Source of the DNA: Chloroflexota bacterium
Lineage (GTDB): Bacteria; Chloroflexota; Anaerolineae; JAAYEA01
Length of the DNA stretch: 32,719 nucleotides
Assembly: GCA_012689325.1 (NCBI GenBank)
Contig: JAAYEA010000470.1
Span: 1 to 32,719 of the forward strand
Direction of reading: 5' to 3'
The notes beneath the pieces are model-generated. The model saw only the letters and a list, made by a program, of their open reading frames with translations. It was not told where the DNA came from and made no database searches. A program made the position numbers and the translations under genes. Below are positions 12,073 through 20,399 of the stretch, piece by piece; the stretch's first letter is position 1, and every line of letters begins with the position of its first letter.

Positions 12073-13074
12073 ATGAAGATGTACTATGATGCGGATGCCG
12101 ACCTCAAGCTGTTGGCGAAAAAGCAGATCGCCGTTATCGGGTACGGCAGCCAGGGCCACGCTCACGCGCTGAACCTCAAGGACAGCGGCTGCAACGTGGT
12201 GGTGGGCCTGCGTCCGGGCGGCAAGTCCTGGGATCAGGCCAAGGCGGCGGGCCTCAAGGTCATGCCCGTCAAGGAAGCGGCGGCGACCTCGGATATCATC
12301 ATGATCTTGCTGCCCGACCATGTGCAGCCCGTCGTGTATCGCGACGAGATCGCGCCGGGGCTCAAGGCTGGCAAGATGCTCATGTTCGCCCACGGTTTCA
12401 ACATCCTCTATAGCCAGATCGTGCCTCCGGCGGATGTGGACGTCACCATGATCGCGCCCAAGGGGCCGGGCCATCGCGTCCGCGAGGTCTATGTGGAAGG
12501 CGGCGGCGTGCCCTCCTTGCTGGCGGTCTATCAGGACGTCACCGGCCACGCCAAGGACCTGGCGCTGGCCTATGCTCGGGGCATCGGCGGTACCCGCGCG
12601 GGCGTCATCGAGACCACCTTTGCCGAAGAGACCGAGACCGACCTCTTTGGCGAGCAGGCCGTGCTTTGCGGCGGCGCGACGGCGCTGATCAAGGCCGGGT
12701 TCGACACGTTGGTCGAGGCTGGCTACCAGCCCGAGATCGCCTACTTTGAGTGCCTGCACGAGCTCAAGCTCATCGTGGACCTCATCCAGCAGGGCGGCCT
12801 CTCCTATATGCGCTTCTCGGTCAGCGACACCGCCGAGCATGGCGACTATACCGGCGGCCCGCGCATCATCACCGACGCCACCCGCGCCGAGATGCGCAAG
12901 ATGCTCAAAGAGATCCAGGAGGGCACCTACGCCAACAAGTGGATCCTGGAGAACATGGCGGGGCGGCCCAGCTTTAACCTCATGCACCGCCGCGAGCGCG
13001 AGTTGCTCATCGAAAAGGTGGGCGCCAAGCTGCGCGCCATGATGCCTTGGCTGAACCCCAAGACGGTTGACTAG
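12073..13074 (+). CDS. ilvC: Ketol-acid reductoisomerase, class I
   Basis: 333 residues from ATG 12073 with GAGAGGAGAAG upstream; the frame is open further upstream but overlaps ilvN. It isomerises and reduces acetolactate or acetohydroxybutyrate using NAD(P)H and Mg2+. The Rossmann motif GYGSQGH is at residues 23-29, and the following loop GLRPGGKSW is of the short class I type with Arg and Ser that usually bind the NADPH phosphate. The magnesium ligands Asp190 and Glu194 in ETDLFGEQ match family numbering, and [15 protein letters not shown] supplies the later glutamates. [20 protein letters not shown] is also characteristic. It is followed by a hairpin before leuA. Confidence 0.97.
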
Positions 13075-13094
13075 GTTGGATCACGTCATATCTG

Positions 13095-13126
13095 GCCACG
13101 CAGCCCGTATAACCGGGCTGCGTGGC
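13095..13126 (+). other. Intercistronic hairpin ilvC-leuA
   Basis: A 13-bp perfect stem, 13095-13107 with 13114-13126, and a TATAAC loop. No T-run follows, so it is not a standard terminator; it could protect the ilv half of the transcript or end a fraction of it. The rest of the 166-nt gap shows no good promoter. Confidence 0.55.
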
Positions 13127-13240
13127 GATATCTGGGTCGAAGGGGGTGGTGGTCGTGACAGAGGATGGCCTTGCCGAGCTTGATCGTCGAAGCGAAGCGT
13201 TGCGTTCTCGAAGGCAAGACAGGAGTGAGATAGGAGACCC

Positions 13241-14827
13241 ATGGACAAGGTACAAATCTTTGACACCACCCTGCGCGATGGGGAGCAATCTCCCGGCGCC
13301 GCGCTGACCATTCACGAAAAGGTGACCATTGCCCGCGCCCTGGAGCGTTTGGGCGTGGACATTATCGAGGCTGGCTTTCCCATTTCCTCCCCCGGCGATC
13401 TCAAGGCGGTGCAACTGATCTCGCAAGAGATCCGCAACTGCACCATCTGCGGGCTGACCCGCGCGCGCAAGGAGGATATCGATGCGGCGGCGGAGGCGCT
13501 CAAGGGCGCCGCGCGACCGCGCATCCATACGGGCCTGGGCGTCTCCGAGTCGCACCTCCAGTACAAGCTGCGCATGACGCGCGAGCAGGCCCTGGAGCGC
13601 GCCGTCTGGGCCGTCAAGTACGCCAAGCAGTTTGTGGAGGATGTGCAGTATTACGCCGAGGACGCGGGGCGGGCCGATCCCCTTTATCTCTTTCAGGTGT
13701 TGGAGGCGGTCATTGCCGCGGGAGCCACGGTGGTGAACATCCCCGATACCACCGGCTACACCTCGCCGCAGGAATGGGGCGCGTTGATCAAGGGGATCAA
13801 GGAAAACGTGCGCGGCATCGAGAAGGCGACTATCTCGGTGCATTGCCACAACGACCTGGGCATGGCCACCGCCAACTCGCTGGCCGGGGTGGTCAACGGG
13901 GCGCGCCAGATCGAGTGCACGGTGAATGGCATTGGCGAGCGCGCGGGCAACACCGCCATGGAAGAGACGGTGATGGCGCTCCGCACACGCAAGGACTTTT
14001 ACGGGGTCGAGGCGACCGTCGACACCACCCAGATCTATGCCCTGAGCCGCCTGGTCAGCGAGCTGACCAGCATCCCCGTGCAGCCGAACAAGGCCATCGT
14101 CGGCGCCAACGCCTTTGCCCATTCCTCCGGCATCCACCAGGATGGCGTGCTCAAGGAGCGCACCACCTACGAGATCATCAACCCGCGCGACATCGGCGTG
14201 CCCGATTCCGAGATCATCCTTTCGGCGCGCTCCGGCCGCCACGGGCTGCGCCATCGCCTGGAGCAGCTCGGCTATCTGTTGACCGAGGAGGGGCAGTTCG
14301 AGGAGATCTATAAGCGCTTCCTGGACGTGGCCGACAAGAAAAAGACCATCAACGACCGCGATCTGGAAGCCATCGTCGCCGACGAGATGAAGCTTTTCAA
14401 GCCCACCTACACCCTCGAGTACCTTCAGGTGACTTGCGGCGATCACGCCATCCCCACGGCCACGGTCCAGTTGCGCCGGGACGACGGGGTGGTGCTTTGC
14501 GACGCCGATCACGGCGATGGCCCGGTGGACGCCATGTACAAGGCGATCAACCGCATCGTGAATGTGCCCAACAAGCTCGCCGAGTTCTCCATCGACGCCA
14601 TCTCGGAGGGCATGGATGCCGTGGGCAAGACGGCGGTACGCATCCAGGCCGACTGGACGGGCGTCGAGGCCAAGTCGCTGCCCACCGTGTTTAGCGGCTA
14701 TGGCGCTGACACCGATATCGTGGTCTCGGCGGCCAAGGCCTATATGCACGCCCTGAACAAGCTGCTCTGGATCCGCAAAGAGGCGCTGGGCAACGGGCGC
14801 AACGGGAACGGGGCGCCGACAGCATAG
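13241..14827 (+). CDS. leuA: 2-isopropylmalate synthase
   Basis: 528 residues from ATG 13241 with AGGAGA 7-8 nt upstream. It condenses acetyl-CoA with 2-ketoisovalerate, the committed step of leucine synthesis. The TIM-barrel start [13 protein letters not shown] carries the catalytic Arg12 and metal-binding Asp13; [11 protein letters not shown] supplies the metal-binding His201 and His203; GNTAMEE and SGIHQDG are also present. The C-terminal ~130 residues contain the LeuA regulatory domain, ending [22 protein letters not shown], so leucine feedback is expected. The length fits long LeuA enzymes rather than homocitrate or citramalate synthases, though citramalate activity cannot be excluded by eye. 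It is linked to the downstream leuCDB genes. Confidence 0.95.
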
Positions 14828-16144: not shown

Positions 16145-16645
16145 ATGAAGCTAAAAGGGCGAGTTTGGAAGTACGGCGATAACGTGGATACCGACGCCAT
16201 CATCCCGGCGCGCTACCTGAACATGTCCACCGCCGCCGAGTTGGCAGAGCATTGCATGGAGGACATCGACCTCAGTTTTGTCCAAGAGGTCAAGCCTGGG
16301 GATATCGTGGTGGGGGGCAACAACTTTGGCTGCGGCTCTTCGCGAGAGCACGCGCCCCTGGCGCTCAAGGGCGCCCAGGTGAGCTGTGTGGTCGCCAAGA
16401 GCTTTGCGCGCATCTTTTTCCGCAACGCCATCAACATCGGCCTGCCGATCCTCGAATGCCCCGCCGCGGTGGATGGCACCCAAGCCGGGCAGACTCTGGA
16501 GGTCGAGCTGGAGACCGGCACGATCCGCAACGTGGATACCGGCGCCGTCTTTCATGCGGAGGCTTTTCCGCCATTCATGCTCGATCTCATCCGCGCGGGC
16601 GGGCTGGTCGAGTACACCAAAGAGCAGTTGAAGGAGAGAAAATGA
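16145..16645 (+). CDS. leuD: 3-isopropylmalate dehydratase small subunit
   Basis: 166 residues from ATG 16145 with AGGAGCGAGG upstream. This is the swivel-domain partner of LeuC. It has the N-terminal GRVWKYGDNVDTDAIIPARYLN and the GCGSSREHAPLALKGA loop that closes over the substrate. Short LeuD proteins of ~165 residues pair with the homoaconitase-type LeuC, in line with its neighbour. The frame is open upstream, but that part overlaps leuC. Its stop overlaps the leuB start (ATGA). Confidence 0.95.
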   Translation: MKLKGRVWKYGDNVDTDAIIPARYLNMSTAAELAEHCMEDIDLSFVQEVKPGDIVVGGNNFGCGSSREHAPLALKGAQVSCVVAKSFARIFFRNAINIGLPILECPAAVDGTQAGQTLEVELETGTIRNVDTGAVFHAEAFPPFMLDLIRAGGLVEYTKEQLKERK

Positions 16646-17721
16646 GCTACCAGATCACGCTGCTGCCGGGCGACGGCATCGGCCCCGAGATCGTCAAGAC
16701 CGCCGTGGACGTGCTGGGCCAGGTAGCCACGACCTTTGGCCACAGTTTCGCCTATCAAGAGGCCCATATCGGCGGCGCGGCCATCGACGCCGAGGGCACA
16801 GCCCTCTCCAAGGAGACCCTCGCGCTCTGCAAGGCCAGCGATGCGGTGCTTTTGGGCGCGGTGGGCGGCCCCAAGTGGGACGATCCCCGCGCCAAGGTGC
16901 GCCCGGAGCAGGGGTTGCTGGCCTTGCGCAAGGGGCTGGACCTTTACGCCAACCTGCGCCCGGTCAAGTGCTGGCCCGAGCTGTATCACGTCTCGCCGCT
17001 GCGCGCCGAGCTGCTGCAGGGCGTCGATCTGCTGGTGGTCCGCGAACTGACCAGCGACATCTATTTCGGCAAGCCTCGCTTCCGCCGGACCTATAGCTAT
17101 GGCGAGCGGGCCGTGGATACCATGTCCTATACCACCCCCGAGATCGACCGGGTGGTGCAGTGGGCCTTCCGGCTGGCGGCTCAGCGGCGCAAAAAGGTCA
17201 CCTCCGTGGACAAGGCCAACGTGCTCGAGTGCAGCCGCCTTTGGCGCGAAACCGCCCAGCGGGTGGCCGATCAGCACCCCGAGATCCAGTACGAGGTCAT
17301 CCTGGTGGACGCCTGCGCCATGTATCTGATGAAGCAGCCCGCCAGCTTTGACGTGCTGGTCATGGGCAACATGTTTGGCGATATCCTGACCGACGAGGCT
17401 TCCATGCTGGCGGGCTCCATGGGCATGCTCCCCTCCGCCTCCCTGGGCAGCGGGACGTTGGGGCTCTACGAACCGATCCACGGCTCCGCGCCCAAGTATG
17501 CGGGGCAGGACGTGGCCAACCCCATCGCCACGATCCTCAGCGCGGCCATGATGCTGCGGTACTCGCTGGGGCTGGAGAAGGAAGCGGTCGCCGTGGAAGG
17601 GGCCGTGGCCCAATACCTGGCCGACGGCTATCGCACCCGCGATGTCATGTCCGAGGGCATGAAGCTAACCGGCACGCGCCGGACGGGCGAGCTGATCGCC
17701 GAGCGCATCCGGGCGGCGTGA
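16642..17721 (+). CDS. leuB: 3-isopropylmalate dehydrogenase
   Basis: 359 residues from ATG 16642, preceded by AAGGAG and overlapping the end of leuD by 4 nt. It oxidises 3-isopropylmalate with NAD+ and decarboxylates the product to 2-ketoisocaproate. Motifs: LLPGDGIGPEIV, GAVGGPKWDDP, VRELTSDIYFGKPR (most family members read TGG here; TSD is a small change), DKANVLECSRLWR, GNMFGDILTDEASMLAGSMGMLPSASLG and EPIHGSAPKYAGQDVANP. It is the last gene of the operon. No aminotransferase (ilvE) or threonine deaminase (ilvA) is in the cluster, so those steps must be encoded elsewhere. Confidence 0.96.
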   Translation: MSYQITLLPGDGIGPEIVKTAVDVLGQVATTFGHSFAYQEAHIGGAAIDAEGTALSKETLALCKASDAVLLGAVGGPKWDDPRAKVRPEQGLLALRKGLDLYANLRPVKCWPELYHVSPLRAELLQGVDLLVVRELTSDIYFGKPRFRRTYSYGERAVDTMSYTTPEIDRVVQWAFRLAAQRRKKVTSVDKANVLECSRLWRETAQRVADQHPEIQYEVILVDACAMYLMKQPASFDVLVMGNMFGDILTDEASMLAGSMGMLPSASLGSGTLGLYEPIHGSAPKYAGQDVANPIATILSAAMMLRYSLGLEKEAVAVEGAVAQYLADGYRTRDVMSEGMKLTGTRRTGELIAERIRAA

Positions 17722-17742: not shown

Positions 17743-17780
17743 CGCAGCCAGTCTCGCCAGGGACTGGCTGCGTTCCTTTT
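17743..17780 (+). terminator. Terminator of the ilv-leu operon
   Basis: CGCAGCCAGTC (17743-17753) pairs perfectly with GACTGGCTGCG (17762-17772), with an 8-nt loop, followed by TTCCTTTT. The tail is also the left copy of the 9-bp duplication around the MITE-like element. Confidence 0.85.
17772..17780 (+). repeat. Left 9-bp target-site duplication
   Basis: GTTCCTTTT directly abuts the left inverted repeat at 17781 and is repeated exactly at 17992-18000. It overlaps the terminator tail, so the insertion struck the end of the leu terminator. Confidence 0.75.
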
Positions 17781-17991
17781 CAGGGCTTGTGCAAAGTCGC
17801 GCTCGGCGATGAACTCGCCGAGCTACGGCGGCATGGAATGCCGGGGCTGCGCCTGATGAAGTCAGGCTTCGGATTCCACGCCGCGGAGGCCCCAGAAGCC
17901 CGATTCCATCGGGCGCGGTGGTGTAGCACGGCGACTTTATCGCCGTGCGGGGCGGTGCGCCAAGGTGCTTTCTGACTTTGCACAAGCCGTG
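17781..17991. mobile_element. 211-bp MITE-like element with 18-bp inverted repeats
   Basis: The ends are CAGGGCTTGTGCAAAGTC (17781-17798) and its inverted copy at 17974-17991, matching at 17 of 18 positions. Both ends are directly abutted by an identical 9-bp GTTCCTTTT. There is no transposase ORF; the element is too short and its open frames look like chance. Inside are five perfect hairpins: 9 bp at 17801-17823, 6 bp at 17829-17843, 6 bp at 17851-17867, 7 bp at 17898-17914 and 9 bp at 17926-17948. This is the form of a non-autonomous element moved in trans by an IS transposase. I cannot name the IS family; a 9-bp duplication fits several. It sits between the leu terminator and the promoter of the next operon. 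Confidence 0.78.
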
Positions 17992-18000
17992 GTTCCTTTT
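17992..18000 (+). repeat. Right 9-bp target-site duplication
   Basis: GTTCCTTTT directly follows the right inverted repeat; it is identical to 17772-17780. The bases after it (TCGG) would have continued the original terminator tail. Confidence 0.75.
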
Positions 18001-18009
18001 TCGGTTACA

Positions 18010-18038
18010 TTGACATTGGGGCGGATTCGTGGTATAGT
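18010..18038 (+). promoter_or_regulatory. Promoter of the BMP-family ABC importer
   Basis: TTGACA (18010-18015), a 17-nt spacer and TATAGT (18033-18038): the same hexamers and spacing as the ilv promoter. The MITE-like element ends 18 nt upstream of the -35 box. Confidence 0.88.
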
Positions 18039-18215: not shown

Positions 18216-20399
18216 ATGAGCAGGAGATTGGCGCTGCCTATCATCTTGATGCTTGTTGTGGCGATGCTGCTGGCATCCTGCAACACGCAGACCCCGACCG
18301 CAGCCCCGGCGGCTACGCCACAAGCGCAGGCCCAGCCCACTACCGCCCCCGCCCAACCCACCGCAGCCCCGACCACGGCGGACAAGGTCAAAGCGGCCTT
18401 CGTCTACGTGGCCCCCGCGGGCGACATGGGCTGGACTTATGAGCACGATCGCGGCCGCAAGATGCTGGAAGCAGAATTGGGCATCGAGACGGCCTTTATC
18501 GAGAACGTGCCCGAGAGCGCGGACGCCGAGCGCGTCATCCGCGACTATGCCCAGAAGGGCTATGATATCATCTTTACCACCAGCTTTGGCTATATGGATC
18601 CCACGGCGGCGGTCGCTGCCGAGTTCCCCAACACTTATTTCGAGCACTGCTCCGGCTACAAGGTCGCCGATAACCTATCCACCTATTTCGGCCGGATGTA
18701 CCAGCCGCGGTTCCTGTCGGGCCTGGTGGCGGGCAAGATGACCAAGTCCAACAAGATCGGCTACGTGGCGGCCTTCCCCATCCCCGAGGTGATCCGCGGC
18801 ATCAACGCCTTCACCCGCGGCGTGCGCACGGCGAACCCCAACGCCACCGTGCATGTGGTCTGGACCAGCACCTGGTACGATCCCGCGCTGGAGCGCGAGG
18901 CGGCCGAGGGCCTGCTGGATACCGGCTGTGATATCATTGCGCAGCACCAGGACACCACCGAGCCGCAAAAGGCTGCCCAAGAGCGCGGCGCGCTGAGCAT
19001 CGGCTATGACTCGAACATGGGCGAGTTCGTCGGCGATACCGTGCTGACCAGCCCCATGTGGAACTGGGGCCCGTACTATATCTCCCGCGTCAAGGCAATC
19101 ATGGACGGCACCTGGAAGTCCGAGCAGTACTGGGGCTCCATGAAAGAGGGCGTGGCGGTGCTGGCTCCCTTCAGCCCTCGGGTTCCCGAGGATGTGAAGG
19201 CGCTGGTCAAAGAGTACGAGACCAAGATCCTGGCAGGGACCTGGGACGTCTTTCAGGGGCCTTTCAACGGCCAGGGCGGCCAACTCGCCGTTCCCGCTGG
19301 CTCGGCGCTGACCGATGCCGAGATGCTGAGCTTTGAGTGGTTCGTGGAAGGCGTTGTCGGCGAGGCGCCCAAGCAGGCGCCGGTGGCTGCTGGCGCCGCG
19401 GCGGAAAAGCCCAAGGTTGCCTTCATCTATGTCGGCCCTACGGGCGACATGGGCTGGACCTATGCTCATGACCAGGGGCGGCTGTACCTGGAAAAGGAAC
19501 TGGGCGTCGAGACCGCCTACAGCGAGTTGGTGGCGGAAGGCGCCGATTCCGCGCGCGTGATCCGCGACTATGCCCAGAAGGGCTACGACATCATCTTTGC
19601 CACCAGCTTTGGCTACATGGATAGCGTCATCGAAGTGGCCAAAGAGTTCCCCGAAACCGTCTTTGAGCACTGCACCGGCTACATGACCGCCGAGAATGCA
19701 GGCATCTATGACGGCCGCGGCTATCAGGGCTGGTACCTGGCCGGCATGGTCGCGGGCAAGATGACCAAGAAGAACGTGATGGGCTACATCGCGCCCTATC
19801 CCATCCCCGAAGTGATCCGCAACATGAACGCCTTCGCCCTCGGCGCTCGCTCGGTCAATCCGGCTGCTACCGTTCACCCGGTATGGATCAACACTTGGGT
19901 TGACCCGGTGAAGGAGCGGGAGGCGGCGCAGGCCTTGCTCGATCTCGGCGCGGATGTCATCGCTCGCGAGAGCGACTCCACCGAGCCGGACAAGCTGGCC
20001 GAGGAAAATGGGATCTATTGCATCGGCTACAACGCCTATCAGCCGGACGTGGCCCCCAAGGCGCTGCTTACCGCGCCCGTGTGGAACTGGGGCGTCTATT
20101 ACAAGCAGGCCGTGCAGGACGTGATGAACGACACCTGGACCAACGCGCCGATCTGGTGGGGCCTGAAAGAGGGCCTGCTGTCGCTGGCGCCCATCGCCGA
20201 TTTCGTCCCGGCGGACGTCAAGACGCTGGTGGCCCAGAAGCAGCAAGAGATCGTGGACGGCAAGTTCGACGTCTTTGTGGGGCCCATCAAGGACAACAAG
20301 GGCCAGGAGCGCGTGGCTGCTGGCGCCACCATGTCCGACGAGTCCAAGCTCGCTTTCGACTGGCTGGTCGAGGGCGTGGTGGGATCGATCCCTCAATAA
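18216..20399 (+). CDS. BMP-family substrate-binding lipoprotein with two tandem binding domains
   Basis: 727 residues from ATG 18216, with AGGAGGAG 7 nt upstream. The lipoprotein signal peptide ends LLASC, with Cys22 the lipid site, then a Pro/Thr/Ala linker to ~57. Residues 58-383 and 398-724 are two complete BMP/PnrA-like domains (each the size of a normal single protein), joined by an Ala-rich linker. They align end to end: GDMGWTY-x-HD, RVIRDYAQKGYDIIF, SFGYMD, VAGKMTK, PIPEVIR, a WNWG-x-YY block and EGVVG recur at matching positions, with roughly half the residues identical by eye. BMP proteins feed nucleosides or purines to ABC importers; the ATPase and permeases follow. Whether both sites bind the same ligand is unknown. 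It should be tethered outside the membrane. Confidence 0.93.
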   Translation: MSRRLALPIILMLVVAMLLASCNTQTPTAAPAATPQAQAQPTTAPAQPTAAPTTADKVKAAFVYVAPAGDMGWTYEHDRGRKMLEAELGIETAFIENVPESADAERVIRDYAQKGYDIIFTTSFGYMDPTAAVAAEFPNTYFEHCSGYKVADNLSTYFGRMYQPRFLSGLVAGKMTKSNKIGYVAAFPIPEVIRGINAFTRGVRTANPNATVHVVWTSTWYDPALEREAAEGLLDTGCDIIAQHQDTTEPQKAAQERGALSIGYDSNMGEFVGDTVLTSPMWNWGPYYISRVKAIMDGTWKSEQYWGSMKEGVAVLAPFSPRVPEDVKALVKEYETKILAGTWDVFQGPFNGQGGQLAVPAGSALTDAEMLSFEWFVEGVVGEAPKQAPVAAGAAAEKPKVAFIYVGPTGDMGWTYAHDQGRLYLEKELGVETAYSELVAEGADSARVIRDYAQKGYDIIFATSFGYMDSVIEVAKEFPETVFEHCTGYMTAENAGIYDGRGYQGWYLAGMVAGKMTKKNVMGYIAPYPIPEVIRNMNAFALGARSVNPAATVHPVWINTWVDPVKEREAAQALLDLGADVIARESDSTEPDKLAEENGIYCIGYNAYQPDVAPKALLTAPVWNWGVYYKQAVQDVMNDTWTNAPIWWGLKEGLLSLAPIADFVPADVKTLVAQKQQEIVDGKFDVFVGPIKDNKGQERVAAGATMSDESKLAFDWLVEGVVGSIPQ

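Follow-up and report, generated by a model that had tools for sequence, protein, structure and literature searches.

An ISAs1-type MITE in Chloroflexota and the spacing of its insertions from predicted sigma70 promoters

An insertion between the leu terminator and a predicted promoter

The window, by which we mean the whole 32,719-nucleotide stretch of DNA that was analyzed, is one whole contig of a 5.29-Mb Chloroflexota source genome assembled in 580 contigs. An ilv-leu cluster (ilvD, ilvB, ilvN, ilvC, leuA, leuC, and leuB) is followed there by a 211-bp element (17781 to 17991, as read from the window sequence) and then by a gene with its own predicted promoter. The features of this region are as follows.

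16651..17721, + strand: leuB, with which the ilv-leu cluster ends, from an approximate start (residues 134-480 of the ORF at 16252-17721 match TIGR00169, E=7e-146)
17743..17780, + strand: intrinsic terminator of leuB, a stem-loop (stem 17743-17772) and T-rich tail, from a terminator scan
17772..17780, + strand: 9-bp target duplication, left-hand repeat, GTTCCTTTT, read directly
17781..17798, + strand: left terminal inverted repeat, CAGGGCTTGTGCAAAGTC, with identical ends on full-length ISAs1 elements
17801..17826, - strand: REP-like hairpin GTAGCTCGGCGAGTTCATCGCCGAGC, from a GTAG-plus-hairpin pattern
17923..17948, + strand: REP-like hairpin GTAGCACGGCGACTTTATCGCCGTGC, inverted relative to the GTAGCTCGGCGAGTTCATCGCCGAGC unit, from the same pattern
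17974..17991, - strand: right terminal inverted repeat, one mismatch, read directly
17992..18000, + strand: 9-bp target duplication, right-hand repeat, GTTCCTTTT, read directly, about -53 to -45 relative to the start site predicted for the following promoter
18010..18038, + strand: predicted sigma70-type promoter, TTGACA-N17-TATAGT with TG before the -10 box, scoring 11/12 in a consensus scan
18216..20399, + strand: downstream gene with a lipoprotein-like start, resembling an ABC transporter substrate-binding protein (NF047927, E=3e-42, below the curated cutoff)

An earlier, sequence-only reading of this DNA had described a MITE with 18-bp inverted repeats, exact 9-bp duplications directly abutting both arms, and no internal transposase. 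Rereading confirmed this: the two 18-nt arms match at 17 of 18 positions, each adjoins one of the exact direct repeats, and none of the window ORFs places a transposase inside the 211 bp. In single-stranded form, the element has a much stronger fold than shuffled sequences do (z=-7.7). Consensus scans also recovered the leu terminator before the element and the promoter after it, as that reading had proposed; both the terminator hairpin and its GTTCCTTTT tail are retained after the insertion, and 18 bp separate the element end at 17991 from the -35 box that starts at 18010.

Copies, parent insertion sequences, and interior repeats

The repeat arrangement had been considered unlikely to arise by chance, and the source genome bears this out: an 18-bp end pattern allowing at most 3 mismatches found 52 matches there, compared with 1 for a reversed control pattern. 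Other copies of the element are likewise plentiful, with 38 BLAST matches in the source genome, many of them cut by contig ends. The refutation that the sequence-only reading had named, a lack of any other copies combined with a conserved 211 bp in related genomes, therefore does not apply. Complete copies range from 85 to 281 bp, and other copies have their own exact abutting direct repeats (GCTTGGCCG, GGGTACCGA, GATGGGCAAA, and GTAAGCCTT), the target duplications of these being 9 to 10 bp long. Among predicted elements in five other genomes, a duplication, mostly of 9 bp, was detectable in 48 of 78, compared with 1.9% of randomly paired flanks. In the sole genome of the same family, leuB is followed by unrelated sequence, which offers no empty allele for comparison, and the window element was not found; in four of the other relatives from the class, only fragments of it gave matches.

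When public genomes were searched for the exact end, 64 stretches were returned, many from Chloroflexota. Comparison with insertion sequences, which the sequence-only reading had called for, revealed the same 18-bp ends on full-length ISAs1-family elements at four loci (L112, L122, L127, and L151), each 1306 to 1336 bp long with an ORF of 366 to 427 amino acids. All four ORFs matched the NCBIfam ISAs1 transposase model NF033564 at about E=1e-62 to 1e-65, as well as Pfam PF13808 and PF01609. The flanking duplications were exact and 10 bp long in L151 and L127, and 8 bp long in L112. At L127 (5492-6974), a full-length ISAs1 element of 1330 bp has inserted next to a 144-bp MITE; the direct repeat, ATCATAATC, is present three times and thus common to the full-length element and its neighbor. 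On the strength of the ends that it shares with elements encoding ISAs1 transposases, the window element is classed from its sequence as an ISAs1-type MITE, having only the ends in common with its parents. Together, the copies, their duplications, and these common ends make transposition by an enzyme acting in trans, with a 9-bp target duplication, well supported. The transposases of L151, L112, and L122 carry an N-terminal extension of about 35 to 60 residues with a conserved FDVN motif; type ISAs1 lacks the extension, which, judged from sequence, is a candidate targeting part.

An autonomous parent was also sought within the source genome and rejected: its 580 contigs encode no intact ISAs1 transposase, and a single DDE_Tnp_1 match lacks such ends. 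Only ISAs1 transposase remnants were found, and the source of the transposase is therefore lost, unassembled, or outside the bin. Old copies do not require a resident transposase, and repeats collapse in assemblies of many contigs.

The interior of the element consists of two GTAG-plus-hairpin units in opposite orientation, as in REP dimers. The source genome holds 25 such units, some of them without element ends, and none of the reversed pattern. The likeness to GTAG-tagged REP/BIME sequences (passages of PMC3733652; TnpAREP, PMC8266576) lies in these two inverted units; according to the same passages of PMC3733652, GTAG repeats are already known from Chloroflexi, and other species have REP dimers enclosed by larger palindromes. 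The difference is that here the dimer is enclosed by ISAs1-type ends with a 9-bp duplication, so that the complete unit would have been mobilized as a DDE transposon. In the source genome, no cognate RAYT adjoining these repeats was found. Its only Y1_Tnp (RAYT-like) gene (L199; G000 contig 336, ~12987-13334) is directly flanked by hairpins beginning TTAGCCGCAGG, which are probably the REP family of that gene itself, and at about 1.2 kb to either side there are GTAG hairpins or remnants of elements. We therefore rejected this RAYT as the mover of the interior repeats, because its immediate flanks carry different (TTAG-type) hairpins. In one relative from the class (L231; G047 contig 402), a Y1_Tnp gene has beside it inverted GTAG hairpins repeated in tandem about every 120 bp, and the two likely form a REPtron; most other RAYT loci have no inverted GTAG array adjoining.

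Element interiors differ between genomes despite the common ends. At ten loci (L094, L102, L105, L106, L109, L116, L117, L120, L133, and L140), the same ISAs1-type ends enclose different palindromes, for example, TTCGACAGGCTCAGGATGAGCGG, CACAGAGGCACAGAG, and TGGATTCCCGCCTTCGCGGGAAT, which resemble well-known dispersed bacterial repeats. That such interiors are captured independent host repeats was considered and set aside: in Dehalococcoidia 277c_29, at loci chosen by their ends, the cores occur almost only inside element ends (25 versus 2).

Spacing between element ends and predicted promoters

Promoters were predicted as matches to the sigma70 consensus scored out of 12, and the offset was defined as the number of flanking base pairs between the element end and the start of the -35 box. 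The pattern described here was first seen in the flanks of the source genome and was then tested on two sets of flanks not used to find it. In the source genome, half of the end flanks (24 of 48) had a promoter scoring at least 10/12, compared with 2.4% of random pieces, and the -35 box most often started after exactly 18 bp (z=11.2 at offset 18), the window copy being one such case; at that offset, 11 flanks scored at least 9/12, against 0.008 expected. The same offset was found in the first test set, 83 flanks from the public-genome scan (z=7.0), and in the second, 99 further flanks from five genomes (z=8.2).

Pooling yielded 231 distinct flanks, and in 52 of them a promoter with a score of 9/12 or more stood at offsets 16 to 20, with 0.75 expected. 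The peak is 1 to 3 bp wide at offsets 17 to 19, with exactly 18 at its top and an almost empty background elsewhere, and among the strongest promoters 28 of 36 fell at offsets 15 to 21. Among the same pooled flanks, no promoter of at least 9/12 at offsets 16 to 20 read toward the element, and wrong spacers between the -35 and -10 boxes produced far fewer matches. Each box gives a peak of its own, the -35 at 18 and the -10 at 41, with similar scatter whichever of them is used as the anchor. Neither the duplicated 9 bp nor the next 9 bp contained a strong motif. About three quarters of the flanks had no recognizable promoter at this spacing, and some elements lacked one on both sides. The sequence-only reading had named the T-tract of the leu terminator as the target, and the duplication does cover the terminator tail; the feature common to sites in the lineage, however, is a promoter about 18 bp beyond the element and not a T-tract.

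Tandem insertions fit with promoter-spaced insertion. At L094 and L320, two consecutive elements are accompanied by the same (near-identical) direct repeat three times, and L321 (G062 contig 14, 1-1000) consists of four tandem elements with near-identical direct repeats, on whose two outer sides strong divergent promoters stand at offsets 19 and 18. After one insertion, the promoter-side copy of the duplication would keep its distance, and a second element could therefore enter the same place.

Beyond the Chloroflexota elements, type ISAs1 and close relatives from Aeromonas and enterobacterial plasmids, at eight distinct sites with perfect 10-bp duplications, lacked any promoter at this spacing (7 was the highest score); the pattern is thus a product of neither the method nor the family at large. 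Family-wide promoter targeting was accordingly rejected, the pattern being absent both from these eight sites and from a few other proteobacterial elements with clear ends. The spacing was seen in a few other ISAs1 lineages (L170, L177, L163, and L343), which may share it.

Origin of the spacing and comparison with known systems

The spacing could in principle be left behind by selection: an ordinary ISAs1 MITE would insert nearly at random, and copies in genes or core promoters would be purged, leaving short intergenic ones, often near promoters. The elements that have no nearby promoter are in keeping with this account, as is type ISAs1, whose lack of promoter preference means that the family needs no such targeting. 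Selection, however, would give a range of distances, whereas the observed peak is 1 to 3 bp wide and was repeated in two test sets; we consider near-random insertion unlikely, and the narrow peak supports targeting instead. Shared ancestry would also yield a fixed spacing, were the promoter-bearing copies duplicates of one ancestral MITE-plus-promoter unit, yet the promoter-side flanks in the source genome are unrelated outside the boxes (mean identity, 28%) and the spacing is therefore not inherited from one such unit. Each copy, moreover, has its own target duplication, which already contradicts a shared unit, and the interiors vary among genomes, so that common descent of the spacing is hardly credible. 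We consider it very improbable that the window element, however it arose, has been retained to insulate the gene at 18216 or to serve it as an upstream regulatory element; its strong structure and its position directly between terminator and promoter would suit such a role, but copies from 85 to about 280 bp long precede many unrelated genes.

A possible, if doubtful, alternative dispenses with a polymerase-promoter complex: the transposase would itself recognize the DNA of the promoter, such as the TTGACA box. The -35 box begins 9 bp beyond the duplicated bases, within reach of a transposase complex, and the transposases of the lineage have the N-terminal extension that is absent from type ISAs1. 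Against direct recognition stand the -10 box, whose peak, 41 to 46 bp from the element end, is as strong as that of the -35 box, and some sites that have a good -10 box and a poor -35 box. We infer guidance by polymerase, which we prefer since each of the boxes matters and the more distant one lies more than 40 bp away.

Under polymerase guidance, a transposase encoded elsewhere would bind the CAGGGCTTGTGCAAAGTC ends of the 211-bp element and insert it via a 9-bp staggered cut at a target chosen by the promoter, probably through bound RNA polymerase holoenzyme. If the -10 box is placed at -12 to -7, the 9-bp duplication falls at about -53 to -45 relative to the start site, a region occupied by the upstream edge of the polymerase and the alpha C-terminal domains, and the cut would fall at this edge. 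The core promoter would be left intact and the host gene still expressed. In the window, the targeted promoter would be that of the gene at 18216, at which the insertion was probably aimed, and the tail of the leu terminator would have been hit because it lies at that distance from the promoter. Overall, we put a probability of roughly 0.78 on the window element being a Chloroflexota-lineage ISAs1 MITE, moved in trans, whose insertion was directed by a promoter, probably via RNA polymerase holoenzyme. To the broader proposal, that bacterial DDE transposons of one lineage, along with their MITEs, select their targets by RNA polymerase bound at sigma70 promoters and insert at a fixed position just upstream of it, we give even odds.

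MITEs are common, and as a MITE the element is of a known kind; the new part is the fixed promoter spacing across genomes. With the ISAs1 family (type ISAs1 of Aeromonas; NF033564), it shares CAGGG ends and target duplications of 8 to 10 bp, and its full-length relatives have the family's 1.3-kb length and a DDE transposase with PF13808 and PF01609 domains, whereas the window element is nonautonomous and shares the ends only. The Chloroflexota lineage differs from type copies in having both the N-terminal extension and the promoter-linked insertion pattern. Bacterial MITEs such as RUP, NEMIS/Correia, Nezha, and ERIC, as described in passages of PMC3733652, are similarly 70 to 300 bp long with terminal inverted repeats of 15 to 30 bp, noncoding, intergenic, structured, and moved in trans, but they have other ends and another parent family. 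No mention of a fixed promoter spacing of MITEs was found in those passages of PMC3733652, and a search of open-license papers on promoter-targeted insertion sequences returned nothing relevant.

If the proposal is true, it shows how parasitic DNA can multiply where genes are densely packed and yet leave them unbroken, each insertion points at, and so marks, a real promoter in uncultured bacteria, and the elements provide a simple system for testing RNA polymerase guidance of a bacterial transposase. They would also parallel, in bacteria, the promoter-targeted integration of yeast Ty3 and Ty1, which are guided by the polymerase machinery to sites upstream of promoters, at a distance that is fixed or varies little, and spare the host gene. 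The likeness, integration upstream of promoters at a narrow distance, is one of analogy only: Ty3 and Ty1 are retroelements that use an integrase and RNA polymerase III factors.
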